Origin: an uncultured Treponema sp.
GTDB lineage: Bacteria > Spirochaetota > Spirochaetia > Treponematales > Treponemataceae
Direction: 5' to 3'
Assembly (NCBI RefSeq): GCF_945873775.1
Contig: NZ_CAMCEC010000001.1
Span: 186,001 to 250,000 of the forward strand
DNA: 64,000 bases
The translations under genes and the position numbers were made by a program. Numbering within the stretch: the first letter of the stretch is position 1; every line of letters starts with the position of its first letter. Shown here piece by piece: positions 1 to 17,801 of this stretch. The notes beneath the pieces are model-generated. The model saw nothing but the letters and a program-made list of their open reading frames with translations, did not search any database and was not told where the DNA came from.

Positions 1-1
1 G

Positions 2-118
2 AACGGAAACACAGCTGCGGCAAAGTGCCTTGCTTATGCTCAGATTACTCCTTCTGTAAACGTAACTTCTGCAGATAGTCTGCAGATAGACTGGCAGATT
101 ACTGTAAGCGGTTCATGA
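2..118 (+). CDS. 3' end of a phage-type structural protein (partial)
   Basis: An open frame enters from the left edge and ends at TGA 116-118, giving 38 residues that finish in TSADSLQIDWQITVSGS. The next gene starts 2 bases after this stop, so they look like one operon. Short Thr/Ser/Val-rich tails of this kind are common in phage virion proteins. Family assignment is not possible from this fragment, and the phage label rests on the neighbours. Confidence 0.5.
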   Translation, partial: NGNTAAAKCLAYAQITPSVNVTSADSLQIDWQITVSGS

Positions 119-119
119 T

Positions 120-3299: not shown

Positions 3300-3316
3300 T
3301 AAAGGAGACTAAGAAT

Positions 3317-3571: not shown

Positions 3572-3590
3572 TAGCAGCAGTTACAGAAAA
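3558..3590. repeat. Perfect 10-bp inverted repeat
   Basis: TTTTCTGTAA (3558-3567) and TTACAGAAAA (3581-3590) are exact reverse complements 13 bases apart, with a further GTTC/GAAC pair outside. It directly follows the phage-like operon. It could be a second terminator-type hairpin or a protein-binding site; no T-tract follows it. Confidence 0.6.
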
Positions 3591-3682
3591 CCTTGAACAC
3601 TACCTGCCGATCTGGATAGGTATTTATATTTTAGTATGGATTAGATTATTGATCAATTTATAATTTGCTGATTGATTATTGC

Positions 3683-3750
3683 AAAAAGCTTTCCCCAATA
3701 GCGAGGGGCTTACTACTTGGCAAATTGGAGAGAGTTTGGAAGCTTTTTTT
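3683..3750 (+). terminator. Long composite hairpin with T-tract, terminator or structured RNA
   Basis: AAAAAGCTT at 3683-3691 pairs with AAGCTTTTT near 3740-3748, with a bulged T and further CC/GG pairs. Inside it CCAAT (3695-3699) pairs with ATTGG (3724-3728), leaving a loop of about 24 bases. A run of seven T residues ends it. It separates the phage-like operon from the cargo operon. The 3572-3777 interval holds no gene beyond this and the inverted repeat at 3558-3590. Confidence 0.5.
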
Positions 3751-3777
3751 ACATGATAAAGTTATTTTATTATTAAC

Positions 3778-3808
3778 ATCACGATTTGATAGACCTCTTG
3801 TTTATAAT
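3778..3808 (+). promoter_or_regulatory. WYL-regulon site 1 with -10 box
   Basis: ATCA (3778-3781), a 5-base spacer, then TGATAGACC (3787-3795). A perfect TATAAT lies at 3803-3808, 16 bases from the start of the right arm. No -35 hexamer is visible at the usual distance; the site occupies that place. It controls the DnaB-like ATPase and metallophosphoesterase pair. Confidence 0.75.
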
Positions 3809-3825
3809 AAAAACAGAGGAACAAA

Positions 3826-4728
3826 ATGGATATTGATGAACATTCATATAATTATGAACAATTAGACAAATTATTATATAGGTTTTTATCATCTAGAAAA
3901 AAGTATAAAAATACAGCACCTAATGATTCTCTAATTATATATGATAATAAACAATTATATTTTGAAAAAGGAGAGTTCATAATTTTAGCATCCAGACCTT
4001 CAATTGGAAAAACTGCACTTGCATTAAACTGGGTATATGATTTTGCAGCAAAACAAAATAAACCTGTTGGATTTATTACATCTGGAATACCTGACTCAGA
4101 ATCTTTGATTTTACGTTTAATAACATTAGAGTCAAAAATCAGTCCTGCAAAGTTAAGAACTGGACTCTTGAATGAAAATGATACAGAACTGATAGCAAAT
4201 GCTACTACAAAACTTTGTAATCTTCCTATCTTTCTAAGTGATATTCCAAATGCAAAATTCGAAGATATAGAAACAATTGCCACAGAAATGCTAAATAAAG
4301 AAAAAATAGAAATTCTTTTTATCGATGGTTTTGAGTATTTATATGAAATTGCAGTTTCAAAAAGCTTTTGCAATAATGCGCAATGGGCAGAACAAATGGC
4401 TCCCTATTATGATGAAATCTATTTCATGATGGAAAACTTAAAAACGCTAGCAAATAAATTGCAGATTCCAATTATCTTGCTAGTTCCAATAAAGCAAGAC
4501 ACATTTTGTGACGAGCCAACTATAAAATCTTTTGAAGATAAATTAATTATTCCTCGAACTGCAGATAAAGTAATTTTTTTACATAGAGACAGAGTAAAAG
4601 ATGCTGATAAGTGGCAAACTGCCAAACTTATTGTTGCGAAAAATGAACATGGAACAGGTGGTGATATGTTGATAAGATTTTGTTGCCGAACTGGTGAAAT
4701 TATATATGATGACAAGGATGCAAAATGA
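3826..4728 (+). CDS. DnaB C-domain-like RecA-fold ATPase, 300 aa
   Basis: Resembles only the C-terminal ATPase domain of replicative helicase DnaB: the strand FIILASRPSIGKTALAL (about residues 51-67) is the DnaB-type P-loop, a hydrophobic strand ending in ILFIDGFEYL (about 160-170) is the Walker B region, a later strand IPIILLVPIKQ corresponds to the DnaB glutamine sensor region, and LIVAKNEHGTGGDMLIRF near the end matches the DnaB terminal KNRxGxxG segment. The DnaB N-terminal domain that binds primase is missing; only about 45 residues precede the ATPase. It is preceded by regulatory site 1, and its stop overlaps the next gene (ATGA at 4725), so the two are coupled. It may be an oligomeric DNA-dependent motor or sensor of the cargo system. 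A diverged relative is encoded at 10609-11478. Confidence 0.75.
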   Translation: MDIDEHSYNYEQLDKLLYRFLSSRKKYKNTAPNDSLIIYDNKQLYFEKGEFIILASRPSIGKTALALNWVYDFAAKQNKPVGFITSGIPDSESLILRLITLESKISPAKLRTGLLNENDTELIANATTKLCNLPIFLSDIPNAKFEDIETIATEMLNKEKIEILFIDGFEYLYEIAVSKSFCNNAQWAEQMAPYYDEIYFMMENLKTLANKLQIPIILLVPIKQDTFCDEPTIKSFEDKLIIPRTADKVIFLHRDRVKDADKWQTAKLIVAKNEHGTGGDMLIRFCCRTGEIIYDDKDAK

Positions 4729-5486
4729 TTTATATAACTGGTGACACGCATAATATAACAGATATGTCGAATCTCTCTTCTAGCACTATGAAGCTTTGTT
4801 GCATGGAACAAGGTGTAGATTATAACAAAATAACAAACGTAATTGTTCTTGGCGATTTTGGGTTACCTTGGTGTTCTTGTTCTATAGATTCAGATGGAAT
4901 TCATCCGAAGGATAAAACAGATAAATACCTTCTTGATTGGTATAAAAAGAAACCTTTTAGGATTCTAGCAGTAATGGGGAATCATGATAATTACGATATG
5001 CTCGAAAAATTGCCAAAAGTTCAGATGTTTGATTCTTCAGTTCTTAAAGTAAGTGAAAACATCTTTTATCTTAAAAGAGGCGAAAGTTATAATATTGAAG
5101 GAAAAACTTTCTTAGTACTTGGAGGAGCACTAAGTGATGACAAAGCACATCGTAAAGTTCACGAAAGCTGGTGGCCACAGGAAGAATGGTCTGATGAAGA
5201 AAGATTAAAATGCATAGAAAGAATCAAAAAAGCTGAAGCAAAGTTTGATTATGTTCTTTCCCATACAGGAACTACAAAAGGAATTGCGAGTTTAGATACA
5301 TATTATGAGAATAATGAAAACCTTGCTGAACTTAAAAGAGATACAACTGTAGTTTTCAACGATAAAGTTGAGTCTATGGTTGTCTGTAAAAAATGGTTCT
5401 TTGGACATTGGCATAGCGACTGGGGATATGAAAATTATTCTACAAACAAATATGTTCCATTGTATCGTATGGGAATCCTCCTTTAG
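4725..5486 (+). CDS. Calcineurin-like metallophosphoesterase, 253 aa
   Basis: All metal-binding blocks of the metallophosphoesterase superfamily are visible in order: GDTH (residues 6-9), GDFG in VVLGDFGLPW-type context near 42, GNHD near 86, a lone His in LSHTG near 180, and GHWH near 226. The family hydrolyses phosphomono- or diesters using two metal ions; the substrate here (nucleic acid, nucleotide or protein) is not evident. The start overlaps the stop of the DnaB-like gene, so it probably acts with that ATPase. Phosphoesterase plus ATPase pairs are common in DNA-processing and defence loci. The protein appears complete. Confidence 0.88.
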   Translation: MIYITGDTHNITDMSNLSSSTMKLCCMEQGVDYNKITNVIVLGDFGLPWCSCSIDSDGIHPKDKTDKYLLDWYKKKPFRILAVMGNHDNYDMLEKLPKVQMFDSSVLKVSENIFYLKRGESYNIEGKTFLVLGGALSDDKAHRKVHESWWPQEEWSDEERLKCIERIKKAEAKFDYVLSHTGTTKGIASLDTYYENNENLAELKRDTTVVFNDKVESMVVCKKWFFGHWHSDWGYENYSTNKYVPLYRMGILL

Positions 5487-5574
5487 TGAAACTATAATTC
5501 TTTTCGTTGTTTTATCCTGAGTTCAGTGTTAAAATTGTACTTTGATACAAACATGAAAAATCAGAGGAAAAAAC

Positions 5575-6693
5575 ATGCGTACTAAGAATAAAAATCATGT
5601 AAGCGTTGCCTTGATTATAATCTTTTCCGTAGCATTTTTAATTACATCTGTACTTTTTAAAGTTTATGGAATAACCGGCATTCTTGCTCAGCTTACAGGA
5701 ACTTTACTTGGAACCATTATTACAGCAATTGTTACTTTACTTCTTCTTGGTGTTCAAACAGATAAAGAGTTGGAACATGAAAAAGATTCCGGTATCTTTG
5801 AAAAGAAACAGGAAATCTATCACAATTTCCTGAAAGAACTTGAAGTTATTACTGAAGATGGGAAAATTACGGTTGATAATAATAAGGATGAATTGCAGAG
5901 ATTAATCTATCAGCTTGGATTATTACAGATGCATGCAGATAAAGAAGTTGCTGAAAAGATTACTGCTTATGTTGGCGAAATAATAGGAATTATTACAAAA
6001 AAATCAAATCCAGAGATTAAATCAAAAAAATACGCAAATCTTTCAGAAAAAGTTTTTGCTATTGTTGAATTACTGCGAAATGATTTGTACGGAAATAGCA
6101 CAGGAGTTATTAATCCTGATTACTTCTATATTACTCTAGCACAATCAGGACTCTTTGAGGGAGAAATTAGAAATACAGAAACGATGAAACGACTTCATGA
6201 AAAATGGTGGAATCTGTTCATCGATGAATTAAAACTAAAACGAAATAAATTAGATTATATTTTCTACTGTGGAGATGAATGTGAGGAAACTGATAATACA
6301 AAAGAAGTTGTAGATTATTTCGAAAACCAGAATAATATTATGTTTAGTTTAATTATCAGTAACAAGAATAGTAATCGTATCTGTTTTTATCTGAATTATG
6401 ATTATCAGACAACTCCAGTTTATGGTTTTGAAGTCGAAAGCAAAGACAAAACGGATAATGACAAATATCTGTATGCTCTTCCAGATAGTTTCTCTCGTAA
6501 TGGATTTGGGAATCCGGGAATCGGAGCCAAAAATATTGATTCAAAATACGATATAGATTTCTATGGAAAGAACAAAAACTATTTTGATTTTGCAAAAGCA
6601 AATGAAAATCAGAAGAAAGAAATTGTAGCAGCATTTGTAGATGAGATAAATAACAATATTGAAGAGTTTCTTAAAAATCTAGAAAATAAATAA
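5575..6693 (+). CDS. Membrane-anchored hypothetical protein, 372 aa
   Basis: Two hydrophobic segments at the N-terminus (about residues 10-30 and 38-60) form a hairpin anchor. A charged, mostly helical cytoplasmic region follows (KELEHEKDSGIFEKKQEIYHNFLKEL type heptads), with a mixed C-terminal domain. No catalytic motif is recognised. The arrangement of two TM helices followed by EKKQEIY helices recurs in accessory-region proteins of many gut bacteria, but I know no tested function. It lies 88 bases after the phosphoesterase gene. No copy of the WYL-regulon site is seen in front, so it may be read through from site 1 or have its own promoter. The ribosome site is AGAGGAAA at 5562-5569. Confidence 0.7.
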   Translation: MRTKNKNHVSVALIIIFSVAFLITSVLFKVYGITGILAQLTGTLLGTIITAIVTLLLLGVQTDKELEHEKDSGIFEKKQEIYHNFLKELEVITEDGKITVDNNKDELQRLIYQLGLLQMHADKEVAEKITAYVGEIIGIITKKSNPEIKSKKYANLSEKVFAIVELLRNDLYGNSTGVINPDYFYITLAQSGLFEGEIRNTETMKRLHEKWWNLFIDELKLKRNKLDYIFYCGDECEETDNTKEVVDYFENQNNIMFSLIISNKNSNRICFYLNYDYQTTPVYGFEVESKDKTDNDKYLYALPDSFSRNGFGNPGIGAKNIDSKYDIDFYGKNKNYFDFAKANENQKKEIVAAFVDEINNNIEEFLKNLENK

Positions 6694-6701
6694 TTTACTA
6701 C

Positions 6702-6732
6702 ATCAAGATTTGATAGACCTGCTGTGTATAAT
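6702..6732 (+). promoter_or_regulatory. WYL-regulon site 2 with -10 box
   Basis: ATCA (6702-6705), N5, TGATAGACC (6711-6719), then TATAAT at 6727-6732, again exactly 16 bases from the right arm start. It lies in front of the zinc-ribbon genes. Confidence 0.75.
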
Positions 6733-6766
6733 ATAAGTAACTAATTGCCAATAGGAGGATTTAGAT

Positions 6767-6967
6767 ATGGCTTACGGAAAACCAATACCAAGTAATCAAC
6801 ATGCAAAGTTTATATGCACAAAGTGTGGAAAACAATGGTCTCCAGGTTCTTATGCAACTGGCGGTAGCTTACCAAAAGGAACTCACGCACCATTGATTCC
6901 ATCACCAACAGCTGGTGGCAAATGTCCAGATACTTCTTCTGGAAATCATGTTTGGGAACAAATGTAA
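6767..6967 (+). CDS. Small zinc-ribbon-like protein, 66 aa
   Basis: Contains CTKCGKQW near residue 17 and a lone CPDTSSGNHVW near 51, a CxxC plus Cys/His arrangement typical of a small treble-clef or ribbon zinc site. The remainder is Gly/Pro/Ser rich. A strong AGGAGG at 6753-6758 supports the start. It is the first gene behind regulatory site 2. The function is unknown; nucleic-acid or protein binding is the usual role of such folds. Confidence 0.65.
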   Translation: MAYGKPIPSNQHAKFICTKCGKQWSPGSYATGGSLPKGTHAPLIPSPTAGGKCPDTSSGNHVWEQM

Positions 6968-6970
6968 TAG

Positions 6971-7008
6971 AAACAGGGCTCAGGTAAGTAGTTATCTGAG
7001 TCCTGTTT
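6971..7008 (+). terminator. Intergenic hairpin, attenuator or partial terminator
   Basis: AAACAGGGCTCAG (6971-6983) pairs with CTGAGTCCTGTTT (6996-7008), 13 pairs with one G-T wobble and a 12-base loop. No T-tract follows, so it may tune expression between the two zinc-binding genes or stabilise a processed end rather than terminate fully. Confidence 0.5.
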
Positions 7009-7028
7009 ATTTAGAAGTAGGTCTAATT

Positions 7029-7280
7029 ATGTCAAATTTTTATTGTGAATATTGTGGCAGAAAGTTTATATCAGTCAGAGGGCTAACAGCAGAACACTGT
7101 TATAGACATCCAAGTGGCGCAAATAAAGGTTTTCATAAGCTTTATGAAGGCAGTGAAAAATCACAATATATTTGCAAATATTGTGGAACAAAAACAGGTT
7201 CCATAGCAACATTAACAAGTAGCCATTGTGGACGGCATCCAAATGGAGCATATAAAGGTTTTCACACACCTGCACTGTAA
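7029..7280 (+). CDS. Tandem zinc-finger protein, 83 aa (two repeats)
   Basis: Two internal repeats of about 36 residues: CEYCGRKF...LTAEHCYRHPSG and CKYCGTK...LTSSHCGRHPNG, each ending GxxKGFHK or GFHT. Each has CxxC plus a CxRH pair, so each likely binds one zinc ion. The ATG at 7029 is chosen because the upstream extension overlaps the previous gene and does not resemble the repeat family. The repeats suggest a DNA- or RNA-binding or protein-bridging adaptor. Small proteins with this finger occur in accessory regions of gut bacteria; no tested role is known to me. Confidence 0.75.
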   Translation: MSNFYCEYCGRKFISVRGLTAEHCYRHPSGANKGFHKLYEGSEKSQYICKYCGTKTGSIATLTSSHCGRHPNGAYKGFHTPAL

Positions 7281-7298
7281 AACCAAGGAGTAACTGAA

Positions 7299-8042
7299 AT
7301 GAGTAAAGAATCATTAGAAAAATTAAATCAAACATTATTAGAGCATTTTGAAGAAACTGGTATTAAAAATGCATTTTATTATGCGCCTGCTGATGATCAT
7401 TATTGGAATAAAAGTGAGACTGCAAAACGTATTGCATTTTGTAATCTTGAACCATACAAGAAAGATGAAAAAACACCATTAAATGGCTATGAATTGCTTT
7501 CAAAAGAAATTCTTTATGACAATTGGTTTTATACAAATACTCCTGGTAGAATTTTTTTATTTAATTATTTCCTAAGTAAGGCTCTATATAATGATGAAGA
7601 AAATACTCCTGAAGAATTAGGTGATATATTTAGAAAAATCAAAAAATCTGAAGAAATAGATAACTTACTTTGGGAAGAATTTGACAACTCATTATATTTT
7701 AATTTCCGCTATACTTGTAATGAAACAGGCTCTACAAATGCAGATATACTTTATATTGTTAATCAATATAAGGATCCATTTTATTGTCAGTTTTATCGTG
7801 ACTTTGTAAAAGAAGCTCAAATTGATGTTTTAGTTATTGGAAGCAAGGATGGGTGTAATTTAATAAATAAGATTTATCCAGAATTACATCTAGAATATAA
7901 AGGTAAACCAGTAAAATTTCAAAATACGATTTTTATCTCAACGGAACATCCTTCAAGAATTAGTTACGATGATATGCTAAATAATATTGAAATGATATAC
8001 GAGGCTGTATATCACAATAATTATATTACTATCACAGACTGA
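7299..8042 (+). CDS. Hypothetical protein with uracil-DNA-glycosylase-like motifs, 247 aa
   Basis: The segment RIAFCNLEPY (residues 44-53) resembles the UDG-superfamily motif 1 loop (GxxPY type), a later strand IDVLVIGSKDG resembles the central beta strand, and STEHPSRIS with HPS at 217-219 resembles UDG motif 2 (HPSP). Spacing and the hydrophobic pattern are compatible with the UDG fold. Motif 1 lacks the usual Gly and catalytic Asp/Asn placement, so enzymatic uracil excision is uncertain; a DNA-binding or sensor role is equally possible. Ribosome site AAGGAG at 7284-7289. Its stop lies inside the next regulatory site (8030-8048). The assignment is inference from motifs. Confidence 0.5.
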   Translation: MSKESLEKLNQTLLEHFEETGIKNAFYYAPADDHYWNKSETAKRIAFCNLEPYKKDEKTPLNGYELLSKEILYDNWFYTNTPGRIFLFNYFLSKALYNDEENTPEELGDIFRKIKKSEEIDNLLWEEFDNSLYFNFRYTCNETGSTNADILYIVNQYKDPFYCQFYRDFVKEAQIDVLVIGSKDGCNLINKIYPELHLEYKGKPVKFQNTIFISTEHPSRISYDDMLNNIEMIYEAVYHNNYITITD

Positions 8043-8062
8043 TAGACCTCTTGTGCTATTCT
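8030..8062 (+). promoter_or_regulatory. WYL-regulon site 3 with -10 box
   Basis: TATCA (8030-8034), N5, TGATAGACC (8040-8048), and a weak -10 CTATTC/TATTCT at 8056-8062. It overlaps the stop codon of the preceding gene (8040-8042), so the site is kept despite coding constraints. Confidence 0.7.
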
Positions 8063-8080
8063 GTAAACACGAGGTAACAA

Positions 8081-8644
8081 ATGGAATATTTTGCAATTGA
8101 TTTTGAAACCGCTAATGATTATCAGAATAGCGCATGCTCGGTTGGTGTTGTCCGTTTTGTTGATGGAGAAGAAAATGATTCTGTTTATTCTCTGATCAAA
8201 CCGGCTAAAATGTATTTTAGACCAGATTTTATAGATATTCATGGAATCAGCTATGGCGATGTTCGTCATAGTCCACAGTTTCCTGAAGTCTGGCAGACAA
8301 TTATTGAACCTTTCATAAAAAAATCAGATAGCGAAAACATATATTTTATAGCACACAACGCTCAATTTGATATGGGCGTAATCCGCGGATGCTGTGAATA
8401 TTTTAGGGTGCCTATTCCAAAAATAAATTACGCCTGTACGCTCCAGATTGCACGAAAAGCCTGGAAAGAATTAAAATGTCATAAACTAACTTATCTGGCT
8501 GAACAATTTGGCATTGAATACGATGCTCATAATGCTCTTGCAGACTCCCAAACTTGTGGCAAAATTTTTTCTTTAGCTGCAGAAAAACTAAACTGTACTA
8601 CACAAGACCTTTTTCTTACTAAAGGTTTCTGTAAAATTTTATAA
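8081..8644 (+). CDS. DEDDh 3'-5' exonuclease (DnaQ-like), 187 aa
   Basis: The four acidic blocks of the DEDDh family are visible: IDFETA near residue 6 (Exo I), IAHNAQFDMGV near 88 (Exo II), and HNALADSQTCG near 152 with the His-x4-Asp of Exo III. These bind two metal ions and remove 3' nucleotides from DNA or RNA. It is a stand-alone domain, shorter than polymerase proofreading subunits with extra modules; about 20 residues follow the fold. It has its own regulatory site 3, so it is expressed with the cargo rather than with host replication genes. Ribosome site CGAGGT at 8070-8075. Confidence 0.88.
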   Translation: MEYFAIDFETANDYQNSACSVGVVRFVDGEENDSVYSLIKPAKMYFRPDFIDIHGISYGDVRHSPQFPEVWQTIIEPFIKKSDSENIYFIAHNAQFDMGVIRGCCEYFRVPIPKINYACTLQIARKAWKELKCHKLTYLAEQFGIEYDAHNALADSQTCGKIFSLAAEKLNCTTQDLFLTKGFCKIL

Positions 8645-8659
8645 AATCTTTTTCATAAC

Positions 8660-8690
8660 CTCACGATATGATAGACCAGCCATGTTAATC
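8660..8690 (+). promoter_or_regulatory. WYL-regulon site 4 with -10 box
   Basis: Left arm CTCA (8660-8663) is degenerate, then N5 and TGATAGACC (8669-8677). GTTAAT/TTAATC near 8685 is in the -10 position, 16 bases from the right arm. It drives the secreted and membrane protein operon that ends with the second DnaB-like ATPase. Confidence 0.65.
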
Positions 8691-8721
8691 TATTTTCAAC
8701 AAATAAATCAGGAGGCTTCAC

Positions 8722-9195
8722 ATGAAGAAGTATATTACAATTTTGTTGGCGCTTTGCATTGTTTCGCTTGGATTTTCTCAGACTGTTCTTACACCTAAGG
8801 AAAAGGTTTATTCACCTCAGTTTCAGAAACTTATGAAATATAAACTTGCAGAAAAAAATGGATCTGCCTATGTGCATTCTTCCGGCAAGATTTCAAAACA
8901 TGTAGAAAACGATGCTGAAGGCATTCTTGTTTATGAAACTGACTTTGGTGGTTTTAGAGGGCCAAATGGATTATGGAAAAAAGGAACTATTCTTGCTGGA
9001 TATAAAGGTAATGAAGTTTACACTTCAATTTTATTTATTGAAACTGCTCCAGATTTTCTAGAAATTTTAATATACAACACTCCTACATATAGAGAATATG
9101 GTTTTCTTACAGACACCGAGTATGATATTGATACAATTATTGAAAATTTCATCGAAGGAAAAACTGAAATGAAATGGGTAATGGATACTTTATAA
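8722..9195 (+). CDS. Exported hypothetical protein, 157 aa
   Basis: Starts with a clean signal peptide: MKK, a hydrophobic run of about 13 residues, and a probable cleavage after LGFSQ near residue 20, with no lipobox Cys. The mature part is small and mixed alpha/beta. Ribosome site CAGGAGG at 8710-8716 is strong. It is the first gene after regulatory site 4, so a periplasmic or secreted product is part of the same regulon. No family is recognised. Confidence 0.7.
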   Translation: MKKYITILLALCIVSLGFSQTVLTPKEKVYSPQFQKLMKYKLAEKNGSAYVHSSGKISKHVENDAEGILVYETDFGGFRGPNGLWKKGTILAGYKGNEVYTSILFIETAPDFLEILIYNTPTYREYGFLTDTEYDIDTIIENFIEGKTEMKWVMDTL

Positions 9196-9222
9196 ATAAT
9201 TAAAAACAAGAGGAGGACTTTT

Positions 9223-10005
9223 ATGAACAAATTTTTGAAAATGATAAGAGATTGTTATCCTATTGTTGTTTTGATGCTAGGTATATTTTTTATCTTTATT
9301 CCGCTGCCTATGTTTGTTATAGAAGTCCTTCTAGTTTTAGATTATATGCTTGCTATATTTTTATTCTGGTTAAAAACAAATTGTGGAAATGAAAAATTAT
9401 TATTCTATGCAAGATTTGTAATTAGTTTCTGTCTTCTTACCTGTGGAATTATGATTTCAACACTCAGAACATTTTTAACTATAAAAGATATTGAATCCCA
9501 ACTTCCGATTGTTAGAGTTATAGGCACTTGGATTTGCAGGGAAAACATAGTTTGTGGATTTTTTACTACACTTTTATTATGCGGAGCTCTTATACTTTTT
9601 TGTAAGTTATTTCTTTCAAGGCATGCCAAAATTGGTTCATGTTATTGTTTTGATGCAATGAATACAAAACTCTTCAATATTGATAATTTGTATAATATTA
9701 ATCTAATTACTGAAGAAGAAGCAAACTGTAGAAAAGAGGCTGTACGCAAAAATGTAGATTATTTTTCTAGCATGGATGGGGCTATTCAATATTATACAGG
9801 AACAATAGTAGCTTTTATGGCTATGTATGTCATTGAAATTGTAGGTGGATTTTCATTAGGAATGATTGAACTAAAACTGACCTGGCAGGAAGCCTTATGG
9901 CAGTATGTAATGCTTTCAACTGGTTATCTGATTCTTTTTACTATACCAATCTTTATAGTTGGATTAACTCTTAGAATAGCAAAGGAGCAGTTTTTAAATG
10001 ACTAA
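9223..10005 (+). CDS. Integral membrane protein, 260 aa
   Basis: About six hydrophobic segments: two close together near residues 12-48, one near 64-84, one near 108-130, and two at about 190-212 and 228-250. Between the fourth and fifth lies a soluble loop that includes ITEEEANCRKEAVRKNVDY and a DG/Gly segment. That layout (helix pairs around a cytoplasmic loop) partly resembles FHIPEP/FlhA-type loop proteins, where a related EEAxxR stretch occurs, but I do not assign it. AGGAGG at 9211-9216 sets the start. Its end overlaps the next gene by 8 bases. Confidence 0.65.
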   Translation: MNKFLKMIRDCYPIVVLMLGIFFIFIPLPMFVIEVLLVLDYMLAIFLFWLKTNCGNEKLLFYARFVISFCLLTCGIMISTLRTFLTIKDIESQLPIVRVIGTWICRENIVCGFFTTLLLCGALILFCKLFLSRHAKIGSCYCFDAMNTKLFNIDNLYNINLITEEEANCRKEAVRKNVDYFSSMDGAIQYYTGTIVAFMAMYVIEIVGGFSLGMIELKLTWQEALWQYVMLSTGYLILFTIPIFIVGLTLRIAKEQFLND

Positions 10006-10597
10006 TGAAATTGTAAACAAATTTATTCAATTCTTAGAAAACGAACAAATTAAACATCCAGAATGGCGAAAAGGTCAAACTATTGTAAATTGTTCGTATG
10101 TTTACTGTTATCATTTAGTAAGAAATCTTATAAATACAAAAGTTGATTGCTTTTATGAAGATTCAAAAATAGATACTTTTATAAAAGCATTTAAAGAAAA
10201 TCTAAAATTTTCTGAACCGTTTGTAGGAATTTTCTGGTTCTATAATGGTCTTGTAATGTTTTCTCATGCAGTTTCATTAACAGAAGGTCTTATTTATGGA
10301 GATGCAATTACAGGTGTAAAAGATCATGCAGATTACTGGGAAGAATTATCAAAAGAACAGCTTTCATTCTTACCAGAATCTTTAAGGCAAGAATATTTTT
10401 CTATTCCACGAGGACGTGTCGTTTACCATAAAGACACAGATAAGTTTCATATATTGCATGGTAGTAATATTAAGAAAAAAGATTTACAGCAAGTTAGAAA
10501 ATTGTTCTGTATACCAAAAGAAAAATCAGTTTTTGAAATTGATACTCATTATTGCGAATATACATCGGAAGAATGGAATTCTTTAATTTCGTATTAG
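9998..10597 (+). CDS. Hypothetical protein, 199 aa
   Basis: Soluble protein with no signal peptide. The C-terminal third (PRGRVVYHKDTDKFHILHG followed by a helix and FEIDTHY) looks like a small beta-hairpin plus helix module that I have seen at the end of proteins of unknown function, but I cannot name it. It overlaps the membrane protein gene, and the second DnaB-like gene starts 11 bases after its stop, so the three are co-translated or tightly co-expressed. AAGGAG at 9982-9987 is the ribosome site. Confidence 0.65.
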   Translation: MTNEIVNKFIQFLENEQIKHPEWRKGQTIVNCSYVYCYHLVRNLINTKVDCFYEDSKIDTFIKAFKENLKFSEPFVGIFWFYNGLVMFSHAVSLTEGLIYGDAITGVKDHADYWEELSKEQLSFLPESLRQEYFSIPRGRVVYHKDTDKFHILHGSNIKKKDLQQVRKLFCIPKEKSVFEIDTHYCEYTSEEWNSLISY

Positions 10598-10608
10598 AGA
10601 GGAAATAT

Positions 10609-11478
10609 ATGAATGCTATATGTTGCATAAATGAACTTCTGACGCAATTTATTGATGACTTATCTAACAGAAATGTGTTTAACCAGACTGATTCTATAAC
10701 AGTGAATGAAAAACTGGCTTTTCGCAAAGATAGTTTAAATATATTAGGAAGTCATACTGGAAAAACTAACTTCTCACTTTCATTAGTTCGTGAACTTTCA
10801 ATAAACAAGAATGTTCCTGTAGGTTTATTTACATGTGGAGAAAACAATAAAAAGCAAATAGTTAGGAGATTTATTTCACAAGAAGCTAGAGTTAATTACA
10901 GCAAAATAGCCAATGGTCATTTACAGCAACAAGAAAAACAACGAATAAATGATTGTATGGAAACTATATATAAATGTCCATTTTTTGTGAATGATGAGGT
11001 TCTTTCATTTAATAAATTGAAAGAATATATAAAAACTATGGTTTTAGAAAACAATGTACAATTCATTATTGTGGATGACTTTTATAATTTATCTGACATT
11101 TTAGATTATGCCTTTTTTTGGGAATGCAAAACTTCTTATGAAACAAATGATAATTACCGTAATGCAGTAGCAAAACTTCTGAATTCAATAAATAATCTTG
11201 CAGAAAAATTTAATATCCCAATTCTTCTAACAATGAATATAAGTCGTTCCTTTGGAGAGCCTACAATGCGTTGTTTTAAGGAATTATCAAGTTTAATTAA
11301 AGAAAAATCTGACATGATAATCTTTTTATACAAAGAAAAAGATTATCTCGAAGAAACCGCAGCTGTTGATTATTACATTATAATTGAAAAAAATAATTCT
11401 GGTAGAAAAGAAAGAACTCGCTATATATATGAAGTACCATACTTAAGATATGATTTTGATTCAGTGTTGGAAAACTGA
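10609..11478 (+). CDS. Second, diverged DnaB-C-like ATPase, 289 aa
   Basis: Same architecture as the 3826-4728 product: a short N-terminal region, a P-loop-like strand (LNILGSHTGKTN, residues 43-54), then VPVGLFTCGE, matching PVGFITSGI in the first protein, a Walker B-type strand FIIVDDFYNL, IPILLTMNISR, and a terminal IIEKNNSGRKERTR that corresponds to the DnaB KNRxG segment. The P-loop is shorter than in DnaB and lacks the Pro-Ser, so ATP hydrolysis may be weakened. ATG 10609 is chosen because GAGAGGAAA precedes it; the longer frame overlaps the previous gene. The two ATPases probably arose from one ancestor and may form a hetero-oligomer; that is inference. Confidence 0.65.
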   Translation: MNAICCINELLTQFIDDLSNRNVFNQTDSITVNEKLAFRKDSLNILGSHTGKTNFSLSLVRELSINKNVPVGLFTCGENNKKQIVRRFISQEARVNYSKIANGHLQQQEKQRINDCMETIYKCPFFVNDEVLSFNKLKEYIKTMVLENNVQFIIVDDFYNLSDILDYAFFWECKTSYETNDNYRNAVAKLLNSINNLAEKFNIPILLTMNISRSFGEPTMRCFKELSSLIKEKSDMIIFLYKEKDYLEETAAVDYYIIIEKNNSGRKERTRYIYEVPYLRYDFDSVLEN

Positions 11479-11570
11479 CATAGGGCTATAAGACATATTT
11501 GTTTTTAATAAAAAATTAAAAAATAAAATAGCATTTGATTTTTTTATAATTAAAATTTTTATTCTTTCCA

Positions 11571-11602
11571 TATCAGCATATGATAGACCAGATGTGTTAT
11601 TA
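11571..11602 (+). promoter_or_regulatory. WYL-regulon site 5 with -10 box
   Basis: TATCA (11571-11575), N5 GCATA, TGATAGACC (11581-11589). A -10-like TTATTA begins at 11597, 16 bases from the right arm start. It stands in the 158-base gap before the AAA+ gene. Confidence 0.7.
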
Positions 11603-11637
11603 ATGTATTTATAATAATCAATAATCGAGGTTGTTTT

Positions 11638-13305
11638 ATGAAGGATTTTACTACGAAAGAAACAATAGTCAGATGGAATATTTCAAAGGCAATGTCTTGC
11701 GTGTGTGACTCTCTTAATAAATCTAAACTTAAACCAAAATGTACACAGAAATATAAAAACTCAATGGAAAATCTCAAAGAATTGTATAATCTATCGCAAG
11801 TACAAGTCTGGATTATAAGTCTAACTTGTAGTCATTATGTTGAACGAGAAGACAGTTCTACCTTACGTAGTTTGGCAAATAACATTGATGTATCTGCTAT
11901 GTCAATTATGACCTGGAAAAAGGAGATAGATAATCTTATTGAAAAAGGTTTTCTTGAATTATACGGAACAGAAGGGGATTTCATACCTGTAAGAGAATTA
12001 AAAGATTCTCTTTATACGAATACAGTTTTTACACCACAACCCAAACATGAACTGAATGAAATCGATTTTCTAAATACGTTCTCAGAGCGTTATGAAAACA
12101 GAAGAAGTTTGGGTATATCTGATTACACAAATCAACGAGAATTAGCCAGATATGAAATACAGCATCAAACTCTTCCAATGATTCAGCGTTTAATAAAAGA
12201 AATAGAGGATTGCAATAACCGATTTATCCTTTATGATGTTGCAAATGATGTTCTAAAAGGAGGTGATTCAAGTCTAAATGAAACACTCTCAGATTTGTTC
12301 GATGGTGAAACACGTTATTTAGTTGCAACAGAAATGATGGAGGAAGAGCACATATTATTACAGAAGGGCCTTATTGAATTCTGTAAAAAAGGTAATCTGT
12401 CTGATGCATGTATCACTCTCTCTGATAAAGGTCGAAAACTTGTTCTTGGTGAAAAAGCCTTTCTGTTCGAGGACTCAATCAATGAGAAAAATCTGATTAA
12501 AAAAGACTACATCAAAGAAAAAATACTCTTCTATAGTGAAGAAAACCAGAAAGAAATCGACCGACTCAAAAATGCCCTGAAGGAAGATAAATTAAAACAA
12601 ATACAAAAGAGATTAATGGATGATGGTCTGCCTGTAGGAATTGCAGTCTTGCTTTACGGTGCTCCAGGAACAGGAAAGACGGAATCTGTAATGCAAATTG
12701 CTAAAGAAACAGGACGAGATATTGTTCACGTAGATATAAGCGAGGCAAAGTCTGCCTGGTTCGGTGAAAGCGAAAAGCGTATCAAAAAGATTTTTATCAA
12801 CTATAAGAATGCCTGCGAGATTGCAGAAAGGAAAAATGAGAAAATACCAATTCTTTTATTCAATGAAGCTGATGCCATTATTTCAAAACGCAAGAACGAT
12901 ACTTCTGGAAATTGTGCGCAAACCGAAAATGCAATTCAAAACATACTCTTGGAAGAACTTGAAAATGTTAAAGGTATATTTATAGCAACAACAAATCTAG
13001 TTTCGAACCTGGATCCAGCCTTTGAACGACGCTTTTTATTCAAAATTAAGTTTGAAAATCCATCGACAGAAGCAAAGACTTTAATCTGGATGAATAAACT
13101 TTCCTGGATAGAAGAACAGGATGCAAAAATATTTGCAAAAACCTACGATTTTTCTGGTGGTCAGATAGATAACATTGTACGAAAAATTGCAATGAATGAA
13201 ATAATTACAGGCGAACGTCCGGAAATCTCAGAAATTCACGAAATGTGTAAATCGGAAAAAATAGAAACTCCCGAATGTGCAAAACACATTGGATTTGAAT
13301 TTTAA
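11638..13305 (+). CDS. AAA+ ATPase with N-terminal winged-helix-like region, 555 aa
   Basis: Residues about 60-125 read as a helix-turn-helix-like region (SQVQVWIISLT..., RSLANNIDVSAMSI), the middle (to about 330) is a helical adaptor, and the C-terminal third is an AAA+ module: Walker A GAPGTGKTES near 341, pore or loop segment AWFGESEKRIKKIF, Walker B LLFNEADAI near 405 with Asn in place of the first Asp, sensor 1 ATTNL, and arginine finger ERRFLFK. Proteins of this Asn-Glu type are a recognised subgroup of bacterial AAA family ATPases of unclear function, related in sequence to FtsH/p97-type domains. No protease domain is attached. Regulatory site 5 precedes it, so it belongs to the cargo regulon. 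It could be an unfoldase or remodeler. Confidence 0.8.
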   Translation: MKDFTTKETIVRWNISKAMSCVCDSLNKSKLKPKCTQKYKNSMENLKELYNLSQVQVWIISLTCSHYVEREDSSTLRSLANNIDVSAMSIMTWKKEIDNLIEKGFLELYGTEGDFIPVRELKDSLYTNTVFTPQPKHELNEIDFLNTFSERYENRRSLGISDYTNQRELARYEIQHQTLPMIQRLIKEIEDCNNRFILYDVANDVLKGGDSSLNETLSDLFDGETRYLVATEMMEEEHILLQKGLIEFCKKGNLSDACITLSDKGRKLVLGEKAFLFEDSINEKNLIKKDYIKEKILFYSEENQKEIDRLKNALKEDKLKQIQKRLMDDGLPVGIAVLLYGAPGTGKTESVMQIAKETGRDIVHVDISEAKSAWFGESEKRIKKIFINYKNACEIAERKNEKIPILLFNEADAIISKRKNDTSGNCAQTENAIQNILLEELENVKGIFIATTNLVSNLDPAFERRFLFKIKFENPSTEAKTLIWMNKLSWIEEQDAKIFAKTYDFSGGQIDNIVRKIAMNEIITGERPEISEIHEMCKSEKIETPECAKHIGFEF

Positions 13306-13310
13306 ACATA

Positions 13311-13347
13311 GGTCTATCACTATATGATAGATCTATAGTATTATAAT
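13311..13347 (+). promoter_or_regulatory. WYL-regulon site 6: full palindrome and -10, autoregulatory
   Basis: GGTCTATCA (13311-13319), N5, TGATAGATC (13325-13333) form a nearly perfect 9-bp inverted repeat, the most complete copy in the window. TATAAT follows at 13342-13347. It sits directly in front of the WYL regulator gene, the usual position of an autoregulatory operator. Confidence 0.8.
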
Positions 13348-13382
13348 ATATATGATTAAGTTTGAAATCAGGAGGAATACTT

Positions 13383-14378
13383 ATGGCTACGGAAAAAAGA
13401 CATATCGATAATCATTTAATGCTGGAGAGACTCTCAAAGATTCACGCAAAAATCAAATCGGGGTGTTATCCTAATTCACAGCAGCTGGCTTTTGATAACG
13501 AAGTATCATTACCTACAATAAGCAGAGATATTCAATTTCTAAGAGACCGTTTTGGTGCAGATATTCAGTATGATGCTGCACAAAGAGGATATTATTATGC
13601 CTCAGATTTTGGCATGCCTTTGAATATGATTTCCACTAAAGACATTATTTCACTTTCTCTTGCGAAACAGCTTTTATCGCAATATGAAGGAAGTCCAATT
13701 TTTAATGAGATTTCAAATATTATTGATTTTCTTTCTGATTCACAGGGGATTGGAAAAGCAGATTTCCTAAAAAGAGTTGCAATGCCACCACTTCCAAAAG
13801 TTTTAGTAAATGAACTTGTCTGGAAAACGGTAATGGAATGTTTGCAGAGAAATACTATTTTGAAGTTTGATTATAATGGACGATGGAATACCTCAACTAC
13901 ACACAGAATGCTTCGACCTTATCAAGTACTTTTACAGGATGGAATGTATTTTGTCTTTGGTTATGACGAAAATGCTGATGATTGCAAAGGAGGAGAGAGA
14001 TTATTCAATCTTTCCCGAATGAAAAATCTGGAAAATACAGGACGTTCTTTTGAATTACCAGAAAATTTTGAATTTGCTTCACGCTGTGGCGGAGGAAGAT
14101 TTGGAGCTTTTAAGGAAGCAAAAAAAGTTCACTATGAAATTGATTTTTATGATGATGCACGACAATTTGTAAAAGACTGTGTATGGGCAGATGATCAGGA
14201 ATTTTCTGAAATAGAAGAAGAACATACAACTACAATAAAATTTACGTCTTCTCAATCTACAAAGGTTCTTGAATGGGTTCTTGCACAGGGTGTAAATGCA
14301 AGACCTATAGCCCCAGCTGAATTTGTAGAAAGATGGAGAAATGAAATAAGAGGATTAGCTAAAGCGGCTGGTGTTTGA
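13383..14378 (+). CDS. WYL-domain transcriptional regulator, 331 aa
   Basis: N-terminal winged helix-turn-helix of the DeoR/HTH_11 kind (residues about 8-65: LERLSKIHAKIK..., SLPTISRDIQFLRDRFG, then the wing with RGYYY), followed by a central WYL-fold region (about 145-225: ILKFDYNGRW, RPYQVLL, MYFVFGYD, RLFNLSRM) and a C-terminal WCX-like region. Such proteins sense nucleic-acid or nucleotide ligands in known cases (BrxR/CapW, PafBC, DriD) and often control phage-defence loci. ATG 13383 is chosen for AGGAGG at 13370-13375. The gene is preceded by the full palindrome at 13311. It probably binds all six sites seen in the cargo; whether it represses or activates is not shown. Confidence 0.88.
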   Translation: MATEKRHIDNHLMLERLSKIHAKIKSGCYPNSQQLAFDNEVSLPTISRDIQFLRDRFGADIQYDAAQRGYYYASDFGMPLNMISTKDIISLSLAKQLLSQYEGSPIFNEISNIIDFLSDSQGIGKADFLKRVAMPPLPKVLVNELVWKTVMECLQRNTILKFDYNGRWNTSTTHRMLRPYQVLLQDGMYFVFGYDENADDCKGGERLFNLSRMKNLENTGRSFELPENFEFASRCGGGRFGAFKEAKKVHYEIDFYDDARQFVKDCVWADDQEFSEIEEEHTTTIKFTSSQSTKVLEWVLAQGVNARPIAPAEFVERWRNEIRGLAKAAGV

Positions 14379-14423
14379 TTTTTTTTGCTTTTCCCCCGTG
14401 CCCCCGATAGGCTTCGCCTTTTA

Positions 14424-14690
14424 TGCGTTGCCAAGAATAAATATCAGAAAGCAGTCCTTGCGGTGGATTGAAAATAATGCGTTGTTTGCAACGCGTTAAA
14501 AAGCGTATGCGTTGCAAAAGCGTTGTTGTGTTTGAGTTTGTTTGACTTTGCTTGAAATATTTTTGAGTGGTTTTGATTTGCCTTTATTTTTTAAATTTCT
14601 TTAGCAACGCTTTACTAAAGAAAAAAGATAAATATTAATAAGAGTATAGATATATAATCTAAAAATACGGATATAAACAACTATGCGTTG
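14424..14690. repeat. Cluster of TGCGTTG / CAACGC repeats, iteron- or arm-site-like
   Basis: TGCGTTG occurs at 14424, 14478, 14508 and 14684, with a shorter GCGTTG at 14520. The reverse form GCAACGC occurs at 14488 and 14604. One pair forms the hairpin GCGTTG-N4-CAACGC at 14479-14494. Repeats of this kind near an element end could bind an integrase, excisionase or replication initiator. No Rep gene is next to them. Confidence 0.5.
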
Positions 14691-14778
14691 TTTTGATTGA
14701 ACGTTATCAGATTAAAACTTTTTGCAAGTTTTTCAAGACTGCTGCGCGCGCTCCCCCCGCGAAATTAAAAATCATCGC

Positions 14779-14798
14779 GTCGCCGCGACAGCGGCGAC
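14779..14798. repeat. Perfect GC-rich hairpin
   Basis: GTCGCCGC and GCGGCGAC are exact reverse complements around GACA. No T-tract follows. Confidence 0.6.
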
Positions 14799-14823
14799 AT
14801 CAGGCAGAATCAGTTCGGAGTGA

Positions 14824-15146
14824 AGACTGCTTTTCAAACTAAAGCGGTTGCGAAGCATCCGCAACTTTTGAAAGCTGTCTGAACGGAGCTTTCGGTGAAT
14901 TGATTGGCGAACGGAAATCACGTTGTCCGCCGAAGGCGAACTGTACGAGACATTTTAATTTTGGAAGAGGAACTCGGAAGAAGCAGTCTTGCTTCAAACT
15001 CAAGGGCGCTAAGCGGCCATAACTTTTGGCAAGTCTGCTTCTGGAGCTGGAAGAATCCTCGGCCCACTGAGCGGCGGGAGCACAAGGACGTGCGACCAGA
15101 GCGACCTGTGTAAGAGGCATATTCATTTTGGAAGAGAAACTCAACG
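14824..15146. repeat. Two tandem diverged units of about 160 bp, each beginning with a long imperfect hairpin
   Basis: Unit 1 (14824-14980) and unit 2 (14981-15146) align along their length: both start with a 57-60 base imperfect hairpin (14824-14880; 14981-15040), share TTCAAACT and AACTTTTG in the two arms, and end with TTTTGGAAGAG followed by AACTC. In unit 2 AAGCAGTCTTGC pairs with GCAAGTCTGCTT with one mismatch. Arm changes are partly compensatory, so the structure rather than the sequence seems conserved. They resemble mobile palindromic repeats. Confidence 0.55.
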
Positions 15147-15154
15147 TGGTAAGG

Positions 15155-15178
15155 GGCGGCAACACGGACGTTGCCGCC
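15155..15178. repeat. Perfect 9-bp GC-rich hairpin
   Basis: GGCGGCAAC and GTTGCCGCC surround a 6-base loop. A second hairpin with AGGGG/CCCCT follows near 15195-15210. Confidence 0.6.
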
Positions 15179-15710
15179 TTGCCGATTGAGTGCAGGGGCT
15201 TGTCCCCTGTGCGATTGAGGCAACCATTTTTCCCACACAAAGATAGTTCCCAAAAAAAAGCCGCCATTGTAAGACCAACTGAGCATCTTAAAACGGTGGG
15301 ACAGCTGCAATGCTGAGCAAAAGGTTTCCCCCTTAATCCCCCCGAGAGCGGTATATAGCATTCTATATTTTTTGGAAGGGGGTTGTGGGGGGGTGCCCCG
15401 CGGCAGGGGGGAAGGGGGAAAACTTTTGCGTGCCCACCGTTTTAAGTTGCGAAACCCGCGGACTGCACTTTATTTTTTCACGACCAGTTTACAGCGCGAG
15501 GAAGAGATTTGGCGGCTTCTACAAAAAGAGTGCTTACTGCAACGATGGGCTCACCTGCGGAAACAGGCAGATGCACAAAGCGGAAGGTGTGGCAGATGCT
15601 TTGCTTCTTCGCTTTTCTTCTGCCACTCCTGGAGCGACTGCAGCTGACTGTGCTTGTATTGCTTCTTGCGCCGCTTTCACAAAGGCCACCTTGCGAGCCC
15701 GCTAGTAAAT

Positions 15711-15775
15711 GCAAACAGTGTGTGAACGAATGGAGTGAAACGAAGTGAAGCGGAATGAGAGAACACTCTGTTTGC
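15711..15775. repeat. Third long imperfect hairpin
   Basis: GCAAACAG at 15711-15718 pairs with CTGTTTGC at 15768-15775, and the adjoining bases pair imperfectly for about 17 positions. The loop holds short GGAGTGAA / GAAGTGAA / GGAATGA repeats. Similar in size to the hairpins at 14824 and 14981 but different in sequence. Confidence 0.5.
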
Positions 15776-16036
15776 TACCTTTTTGGGAAAGAGCGTTTAC
15801 TGGAAACAAGAAAAATGTAGAGAGCGGAAGCGGTACGAAGTACGGCTGGAGCGAACGGCAATTAACGAACAGTATTTGGAATAGCGAATTGGACAGTGAA
15901 TTGGATAGTAAACCCATACTAATGGGTGATACTCAAAACCATTCAGTTTGACTAAGACCAAATAATACATTAAGATACAAGTACTTAATTCGTAAACGAT
16001 AGGCAGAGTTATTTTTTATGAGCTACACGCTTAAAA

Positions 16037-16078
16037 CTTTTAAGGCGTGGGTCTCGTGTTCGAATCACGAGTAGCTCA
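16037..16078 (+). tRNA. 3' half of tRNA-Lys(UUU), attachment-site remnant (attR)
   Basis: Reads in order as anticodon loop CTTTTAA (anticodon TTT), anticodon-stem 3' strand GGCGT, variable loop GGGTC, T-arm TCGTG-TTCGAAT-CACGA, acceptor GTAGCTC and discriminator A; CCA is not encoded. The matching D-arm is absent. Immediately left, GAGCTAC (16020-16026) could pair with the acceptor strand, and ACGC-TTAAAA (16027-16036) is an inverted, one-base-shorter copy of TTTTAAGGCGT, as expected of inverted integrase core sites centred on an anticodon loop. It is therefore a truncated tRNA, not a functional gene, unless a D-armless tRNA is made. Confidence 0.7.
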
Positions 16079-16082
16079 GTAG

Positions 16083-16113
16083 AAGGCACTTGATTTTCAA
16101 GTGTCTTTTTTTA
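16083..16113 (+). terminator. Intrinsic terminator behind the tRNA-Lys remnant
   Basis: CACTTGA and TCAAGTG pair around a 3-base loop, extended by G-T, G-C and A-T pairs, and are followed by a seven-T run. Its position 5 bases after the tRNA end suggests it is the original tRNA-Lys terminator. Confidence 0.8.
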
Positions 16114-16151: not shown

Positions 16152-17801
16152 TTATTTTATAACTTTCCAGTCCGCGCCGTTTTTTCCGCCGAAAACTTTT
16201 GTTCGATTTTTAAACTTTCCGCAGTTTTCAGATAAAAACGCAACATCGTAGCCGCTCATCAAATCGTCAGGATGATAATGAAGCTCAATACAAGACTCTT
16301 TTCCTTCCGCAGTAAAAAGGCTCAACGCATTATTCAAAACAATTATGTCAGAAACAAACGGAATCATTTTTTCAAGATGACGATTTTTGTATTGCGACAA
16401 AATAAATTCAAGCTGAAGCTTTTGAATTTCTGAAAATGAAAAATCCGTATTTTTTTTCAGTTCTAAAAAGCGCGAAAAATTTTCAAGAAAAACAGAAGGC
16501 TTTACATGAAGCGGAAACAAAATCAAATTGAACCAAGGAACGGCTCTGCCTTTGTTGTAAAAAATATCGGCGGCAAAAGAAAATTTTCTGGCTTTGTCTA
16601 TGTCTTGAGATGAAAAAGTTTTTGTTTTTAAAACATTGTAAGGCGGAACTTGCTGCCACTCAAGACCCAAAGACGCGGCTTTGTCATGCAAATCAGTTCC
16701 AGGCAAAACGCTAAGGCAAAAAAGCTCAAGGTTGTTCGGATAAAGAGAAAGCGCAAAATCCACGCTTTGCTTGAACCCAGAAAAACTGTCGCCCGGAAGT
16801 CCGAAAATCAAATCGAATCCAAAGACAACGCCTTCCCTATTTAAAATGCCGATGTTCTTTACAAATGTTTTTTTATCAAAGCTGCGATTCACTAACGCAA
16901 GAACTTCTTTATGCATGCTTTGAAGTCCAAACTGAAGGCTGCATGGAATAGAAGCAAACGCCTGGGCAAGTTCCCTGTCAATAAATTCCGCGCGGGCTTC
17001 AAAGCTAAAAAATGTTCCGGGAGATTTTCTTTTTATAAGCTGAAGAATTTCCAGCGCGCGTTTTTTATTCGCATTGTAAGTCGGATCAAGAACAAAGACT
17101 TGCGGCACTTTTTTTTCAGCAAAAAATTCAAGTTCACGTTCTATGCGTTCCATTGAAAAATACTGAACTTTTTTTTCACCTTTGCTTTCATAGCAGTACG
17201 AGCATTTAAATGGACAGCCACGGGCAAGTTCCCACAACGCTCCGCAATAATCAGAAGGATTTAAAGTTCCATCAAGCCACGGTGAAGACAAACTTTGCAA
17301 TGACGGAGGCAAACTTCGGCATAAGGAATTTTTGTTTTCTCCTTTTTTATATACGCCTTGAATTTCAAAGTTTTCGTTTTTGTTTTCAGAATTAAAAAGT
17401 TTATTTATAAGCAACGGCACAGATTCTTCACCCTCGCCGCAAACAGTCCAGTCAAAATTTTTAAACGAAAGCGGAGACGCTGTAACTTCAGGACCGCCAG
17501 CAATAAGAATGGCAGAAGGAAATTTTTCTTTTATCTTTCGCGCCAAACTTTCAAGCTGCGTTCTATTCCACACAAAAACACTAAAGCAGACCGCAAAAAG
17601 ATTTTCAGCGCAGGAAAAAATTTCAGATTCAATCTTAGAGGAACTTCCGCCTTCCAGAGAAAAAGAAGCCAAGCGGACTTCAAAAATATTTTTTGTAAGC
17701 GGACTGTTTTTTACAGCGGAAGCAATGCAAGCAGCGCCAAGAGGAACAGCCTGAGGAGATGTTTCCGCCAAAGCAGTAACGCAGTAAACAATCTTGCTCA
17801 A
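16152..17801 (-). CDS. B12-binding-type radical SAM protein, 549 aa
   Basis: The N-terminal about 140 residues form a cobalamin-binding-like Rossmann domain (PLGAACIASAV, ILIAGGPEVTASP). The radical SAM core carries ARGCPFKCSYCYESKG near 195, whose CxxxCxxC holds the 4Fe-4S cluster that cleaves S-adenosylmethionine. A C-terminal region of the DUF4080 kind follows. Such proteins modify varied substrates; this one is not assignable. The start is TTG at 17801, supported by GGAGG (rc of 17806-17810 region) 4-5 bases upstream; no ATG fits the conserved N-terminus. It follows the EF-G gene after 15 bases and is probably co-transcribed with it. Confidence 0.85.
   Translation of the reverse strand: MSKIVYCVTALAETSPQAVPLGAACIASAVKNSPLTKNIFEVRLASFSLEGGSSSKIESEIFSCAENLFAVCFSVFVWNRTQLESLARKIKEKFPSAILIAGGPEVTASPLSFKNFDWTVCGEGEESVPLLINKLFNSENKNENFEIQGVYKKGENKNSLCRSLPPSLQSLSSPWLDGTLNPSDYCGALWELARGCPFKCSYCYESKGEKKVQYFSMERIERELEFFAEKKVPQVFVLDPTYNANKKRALEILQLIKRKSPGTFFSFEARAEFIDRELAQAFASIPCSLQFGLQSMHKEVLALVNRSFDKKTFVKNIGILNREGVVFGFDLIFGLPGDSFSGFKQSVDFALSLYPNNLELFCLSVLPGTDLHDKAASLGLEWQQVPPYNVLKTKTFSSQDIDKARKFSFAADIFYNKGRAVPWFNLILFPLHVKPSVFLENFSRFLELKKNTDFSFSEIQKLQLEFILSQYKNRHLEKMIPFVSDIIVLNNALSLFTAEGKESCIELHYHPDDLMSGYDVAFLSENCGKFKNRTKVFGGKNGADWKVIK

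Follow-up and report, generated by a model that had tools for sequence, protein, structure and literature searches.

A tRNA-Lys(UUU) 3' half in an uncultured Treponema is the right attachment site of a tailed-phage prophage

The 42 bases at positions 16037-16078 of the window, by which we mean the whole 64,000-nucleotide stretch of Treponema DNA analysed (G000:C1:186001-250000), are the attR of a 30,751-bp tailed-phage prophage and hold the displaced 3' half of the host tRNA-Lys(UUU) gene. The recombinant structure, the rebuilt tRNA, the displaced half and the empty site were each observed directly. We regard it as close to certain that the attR arose when a tyrosine integrase inserted this prophage into the anticodon-loop region of tRNA-Lys(UUU). 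The features concerned are the following (window coordinates unless a contig or locus is named).

G000:C1:171286-202036 (window -14714 to 16036), whole prophage, 30,751 bp, with core-to-core boundaries
L032:5533-6915, tyrosine integrase gene, directly right of the intact tRNA; its ATG at 5533 is preceded by GAGG
1..16036, +, right-hand part of the prophage within the window, with primase, DnaB-like helicase and exonuclease genes
15889..15897, +, putative arm-type integrase site TTGGACAGT, right arm copy 1; the motif occurs three times in the left arm
15901..15909, +, putative arm-type integrase site TTGGATAGT, right arm copy 2, 12 bp after copy 1
16020..16036, +, phage-side core flank, GAGCTAC plus ACGCTTAAAA (inverted copy of TTTTAAGGCGT), without counterpart in the attRs of G118, G198 and G023
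16037..16053, +, exact 17-bp core common to attL and attR, CTTTTAAGGCGTGGGTC; second copy at G000:C1:171286-171302 in the intact tRNA
16037..16078, +, attR, the host's own tRNA-Lys(UUU) 3' half in displaced position; found letter for letter in 7 further genomes among the 200 searched
16084..16113, +, terminator native to the host tRNA-Lys gene, which stayed behind at attR; G167 has the same terminator after its intact tRNA
16152..17801, -, radical SAM/B12-binding gene (Pfam), right host flank; the same gene adjoins the empty site in G167

The right junction

Positions 16037-16078 read CTTTTAAGGCGTGGGTCTCGTGTTCGAATCACGAGTAGCTCA; they begin at the first anticodon-loop base of tRNA-Lys(UUU) and run as far as the discriminator base. 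The 7-nt anticodon loop CTTTTAA and the 3' anticodon-stem strand GGCGT are followed by the variable loop, the T-arm and the acceptor strand GTAGCTC with A73; the D-arm is absent on the 5' side, and a hairpin with a T-run terminator lies on the 3' side. A preliminary description made from the sequence alone had matched these bases arm by arm to the 3' half of a tRNA with a UUU anticodon, had placed a tRNA terminator and core genes after them and had taken the whole as the footprint of site-specific integration at a tRNA gene. The arms do read as it said, the terminator at 16084-16113 is followed by the host radical SAM gene, and the footprint is borne out by the attR itself, the far-end integrase and an element-free relative. 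ARAGORN called no tRNA at 16037-16078, and the tRNA covariance model (RF00005) gives 21.9 bits on 16020-16078, the cut-off being 29. The identical 42 bases were found within intact tRNA-Lys genes of relatives, so that the match is far beyond chance.

The left end and the rebuilt tRNA gene

An intact tRNA-Lys(UUU) gene occupies G000:C1:171255-171327, 30.7 kb to the left of the displaced half and on the same strand of the contig, and the 17-base core CTTTTAAGGCGTGGGTC is present at both G000:C1:171286-171302 and 202037-202053. The T-stem strands are ACTGG/CCAGT in the intact tRNA versus TCGTG/CACGA in the displaced half; the T-loop and the acceptor strand agree, 36 of the 42 bases being the same and 6 different. 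A search of the genome allowing up to 3 mismatches revealed no second copy of the native core-plus-T-arm. When the host flanks are joined at the core, they yield a full tRNA identical to that of G011. The ACTGG/CCAGT stem of the rebuilt tRNA is common in other species of the genus, whereas the nearest host relatives carry TCGTG/CACGA. The T-stem of the rebuilt tRNA is thus phage-supplied and the displaced half is the native one, which suggests that the phage acquired its tRNA segment from a lineage other than the present host; this origin is read from the distribution of stems in 57 distinct core copies, not from a tree. The preliminary description had asked for an upstream intact tRNA-Lys repeating 16037-16078. 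Such a gene was found but, because its T-stem is different and phage-supplied, the repeat is limited to the 17 exact bases, the T-loop and the acceptor strand.

The element thus has an intact tRNA at one end and a displaced fragment in the same orientation at the other, as tDNA prophages do, with the integrase inside it and beside the rebuilt tRNA and with phage structural and packaging genes. It departs from tRNA-dependent lysogeny, where the tRNA is not rebuilt and a whole tRNA is carried by the phage: here the tRNA-Lys is rebuilt at attL.

The empty site in related genomes

A search of 200 genomes of the genus for the exact 42 bases returned 8, own genome included. The nearest relatives according to the elongation-factor-G-like protein of the window (G167, 99%; G213, 98%; G122, 83%) are all among these eight. 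Once the host flanks are put together at the first base of the anticodon loop, G167 matches them without interruption over 2,952 bp (96.24%), and this single block runs from RsgA at its left through an intact tRNA-Lys to the radical SAM gene at its right. G213 shares the left side and also has an intact tRNA-Lys, its right side agreeing for 93 bp, and in both genomes the exact 42 bases sit at the orthologous place. An integrase match at E<=1e-20 was obtained in 88 of the 200 genomes, G167, G213 and G122 not being among them. The element is therefore absent from these genomes, and what the window carries is the native host half together with its native terminator. In a first sample of 56 loci, RsgA/radical SAM flanks were seen at none of the relatives' loci, only the window's own matching, because the nearest species were absent from that sample; the wider search found them. 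The comparison with strains lacking the element, proposed at the outset, is therefore provided by the uninterrupted tRNA-Lys of G167. The preliminary description had also held that the same sequence in such strains would speak against integration, which is the wrong way round: the native half is expected there joined to its 5' half, and was found so.

Gene content of the prophage

Beyond the left edge of the window, where the preliminary description had advised looking for an integrase, a tyrosine integrase gene directly follows the intact tRNA-Lys. Its open reading frame is intact and matches the PHROG integrases (9e-43) and Pfam Phage_integrase (1e-19). R290, K322/K325, R403, H425 and Y434 are invariant among 19 homologues and H400 is present in at least 90% of them; we take these residues to be the catalytic RKHRH set and the nucleophilic Tyr. 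The integrase gene is followed by a gene for a 66-residue HTH_17 protein, likely the excisionase, and then by structural and packaging genes coding for the terminase small and large subunits, a portal, a head protease-like protein and a major head protein. The prophage genes in the window code for a D5-type primase/helicase, DnaB-like helicases, an exonuclease, an AAA ATPase and a WYL regulator. The element is thus a tailed-phage prophage, with open head genes, both junctions and both arm arrays present.

The integrase has 53 matches among phage records, all below 60% identity, the 20 listed of these 53 lying at 24-30%. The integrase protein has no match in viral_contigs, and the right-end-plus-core pattern had 0 matches in the same set, a result that is not decisive on a circular form. 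A search of genome_contigs revealed one relative (L112, from an uncultured Treponema sp.), whose integrase N-terminus and arm array are the same as those of G198, a member of the window's own genus.

Other observations concern the right-hand part of the prophage. For a 260-residue ORF at 9223-10005 (+), Pfam gives FlhA/FHIPEP at 2.7e-28, the match covering only positions 2-229 of 657, in the N-terminal part of that family; such a cargo is unusual in a phage and perhaps acts on the flagellar export gate. Near the right end, at 11638-14378 (+), an AAA ATPase similar to IetA defence models (PADLOC, 3e-26) precedes the WYL regulator, and the two are possible cargo defence genes. The interval 14379-16019, about 1.6 kb, is without convincing genes, and the G+C content is 0.49 at 15001-16000 versus 0.27-0.39 in the prophage to the left.

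Other elements in tRNA-Lys genes

The closest integrases, from G118, G085 and G198 (73-79% identity), are all located at tRNA-Lys(UUU). Both junctions of the G118 element could be read, 26.7 kb apart, and the attR of the G198 element is on another contig. The 17-base core occurs in 114 of 200 genomes, and 11 of these, own genome included, have two or more copies. Inspection of all 11 multi-copy genomes revealed a non-tRNA left side in four (own, G118, G198 and G023, the last with a 2.9-kb element); in the remaining ones the copies are truncated at a contig end or by N, or belong to a second intact tRNA. In 4/4 elements (own, G118, G198 and G023) the break point is the first anticodon-loop base.

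The G023 element in tRNA-Lys (L154 307-3236), with this same breakpoint, is either a mini-element or a deletion remnant. About 200 bp to the host side of the G198 attR, a DUF3800-VI RNA (RF02915, 43.6 bits, cut-off 35) is predicted at L099 1254-1304 (+). At element coordinates 22490 in G004 and 50222 in G039, the last ~18 tRNA-Arg bases only are present, with a common GACCGTCGCGGCGAATC lead-in, as from a second element class crossing over in the T-loop.

Mechanism and alternatives

The arrangement can be accounted for by a phage whose attP would have carried a tRNA-Lys 3' half. The integrase would exchange strands inside the shared 17-bp core. As the sequence shows, the 3' half supplied by the left end of the element completes the host 5' half and gives the intact tRNA at attL. 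The integrase may bridge the core and arm sites, for which TTGGAYAGT repeats on both arms are putative candidates. This motif occurs 25 times in the 2.59-Mb genome, five of the occurrences being at the two element ends: three within 46 bp in the left arm, 11-56 bp 5' of the integrase ATG, and two within 21 bp in the right arm, 128-148 bp before the attR core. The Xis-like HTH_17 protein would direct excision. Because the left-arm repeats precede the start of int, and by analogy with KplE1 intS, an integrase bound to them just before its own start codon could repress int.

Partial tRNA sequences can also be left by decay, and the residue could be a tRNA pseudogene formed by duplication or decay, the phage genes being there by coincidence. 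The empty site with uninterrupted flanks in G167, the integrase adjoining the rebuilt tRNA and a breakpoint that is the same in four elements of four genomes make this explanation extraordinarily improbable. Only slightly more credible is a functional D-armless tRNA-like RNA of 59 bases (16020-16078) kept by selection, a fold that the preliminary description had entertained. It would draw on the complementarity of GAGCTAC (16020-16026) to the acceptor strand GTAGCTC, an anticodon-arm-like hairpin, an MFE of -22.4 kcal/mol with three helices, and the 21.9 bits against RF00005. This score is under the family cut-off, the anticodon loop has 10 nt in the MFE fold, not 7, the host tRNA promoter remains at attL, and the 3' half is simply the displaced native half. 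The inverted copy (ACGC TTAAAA C TTTTAA GGCGT) and GAGCTAC are indeed in the sequence, as the preliminary description said. When the flank is resampled by a Markov model, GAGCTAC turns up no further than 30 nt from the core in 0.13% of cases (1.8% if G-U pairs are permitted), and in 124 of 3000 resamplings the hairpin that the left flank forms with the core is at least as stable. None of the other three attRs at Lys sites (G118, G198 and G023) has these 5' elements, so that the D-armless tRNA finds little support, and we treat both as lineage-specific or due to chance. For the same lack of conservation, the idea that the inverted anticodon-stem copy is a conserved integrase core site was dropped.

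Integration at tRNA-Lys would also be compatible with a prophage that is today an immobile fossil, its junction correctly read and its ability to excise lost; this concerns present activity. We think this state rather unlikely, although it deserves far more weight than the two explanations above: no free form was found in viral_contigs with the right-end-plus-core pattern or the integrase, and the G+C-rich 15.0-16.0 kb stretch has no convincing genes, against which stand the intact integrase ORF, the Xis candidate, both junctions, both arm arrays and the open head genes.

Relation to known systems

Integration of the prophage at tRNA-Lys follows a familiar pattern. Islander, as described in PMC4383910, defines tDNA-integrated prophages and islands, those with an anticodon-centred attP forming class A. 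The present element resembles class A as defined there in its intact tDNA, same-orientation displaced 3' fragment, integrase between the two and anticodon-centred attP; we see no difference in kind from the elements of that account, the feature to record here being the phage T-stem of the rebuilt tRNA, by which 6/42 bases differ. For mycobacteriophage Boilgate, PMC10865867 describes a 43-bp common core over the 3' half of tRNA-Lys-TTT (attB-4) with five differences. The core over the tRNA-Lys(TTT) 3' half and the arm-type sites on both sides, putative in our case, are common to both, but the hosts are unrelated. In KplE1, attL has arm sites upstream of intS by which Int can repress itself, according to PMC2951348; attL arm repeats likewise lie upstream of int here, where regulation is suggested by position only.

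The prophage is new, but its kind is well known and its biology is that of ordinary, documented prophages. In a 2024 survey of 38 Treponema prophages, the ends were estimated by software and gene context, and neither 'attL' nor 'integration site' occurs in its main text (PMC11144348). The present data fix the exact ends of a Treponema prophage and supply an empty-site control.

Putative arm-type repeats and the integrase N-terminus

Other repeats occupy the same relative positions in related elements: TTGACAAA in G118 and GGTACCAA in G198 at Lys sites, GATTTCAGTAA, GATTGGATAA, TTTCGGAA and GATTGTACTAA at Arg sites, GATTGTAGTAA and CCTACATAA at Asn sites, and AATTTGATAA, ATGATACTAA and GATTGTCTAGA at Gly sites. 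The needed N-terminus was available for 28 of 31 integrase loci, three without the N-terminal pattern being dropped. These gave 23 distinct integrase upstream regions, 21 with a best repeat lag of 12 bp and the other 2 with one of 11 bp.

Seven elements were compared at both ends. Of six non-Lys regions fetched, G181 (no right junction within its contig) and G039 (whose far candidate is a complete tRNA-Arg) were left out, as was the 2.9-kb Lys-site element of G023 (no clear left-end arm repeats); G041, a near copy of G040, and G199, with right-arm repeats present and the right core off the contig, agree but were uncounted. Six of the seven have their own motif common to both ends, with 9-23 8-mers shared between the ends of the same element versus at most 6 between different elements. 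The seventh, G079, has CCTACATAA on the left, ATTGTAGTAA on the right and 1 common 8-mer. The differing arm repeats of this 21.9-kb Asn-site element (G079:C1, L171-L173) are at element coordinates 261-305 and 21836-21857, and only one related integrase and two cores were found in the stretch.

In several pairs of integrases that share a site but differ in motif, the first 50 residues are less alike than the catalytic part: 78% versus 99% for G202/G079 and 47% versus 88% for our element and G118. Other pairs lack this contrast, the Arg-site L058/L068 (69% versus 66%) being one example. Over all pairs, N-terminal and C-terminal means are 59% and 56% with different motifs, 92% and 90% with the same motif. 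At the DNA level, G202 and G079 are 28-47% identical over the left arm versus 87-100% in and after the catalytic part. The N-terminus gave no Pfam arm-binding match in 19 members and no PDB sequence match; it is a putative arm-binding domain and differs along with the arm motif in several pairs.

These facts fit arm-type sites that may change together with the integrase N-terminal domain in several pairs. We weigh evenly for and against a broader proposal, a Treponema integrase family with an exchangeable arm-recognition module. In it the left-arm repeats, held close to a 12-bp phase, and the N-terminal ~50 residues would co-change, with no change in the catalytic part or the tRNA core; the ~14 motifs would form a natural recognition code, and G079 would be a chimera with new left and old right arm sites, predicted to be impaired in excision. 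Divergence of arm repeats and integrase N-terminus at the same core site is already described in the accounts of mycobacteriophages (PMC3203893) and Oenococcus phages (PMC8074189). Compared with what those accounts describe, the present set has more motifs, spaced at a 12-bp phase that hardly varies, and includes one element, G079, whose left and right ends differ in motif. The paired change would allow tests of arm recognition with natural variants.

Two further blocks were noticed by eye in the left arms of related elements (L160, L165, L158 and L055-L080). One, CTAAAT..CTTAT..ATAAGGATTTAG, is conserved and palindrome-like, and the other reads CCCTACC..GGAAYGGGCG; in most members of the family they come after the tRNA terminator and before the arm repeats. 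Both are perhaps sites for an accessory protein or Xis.
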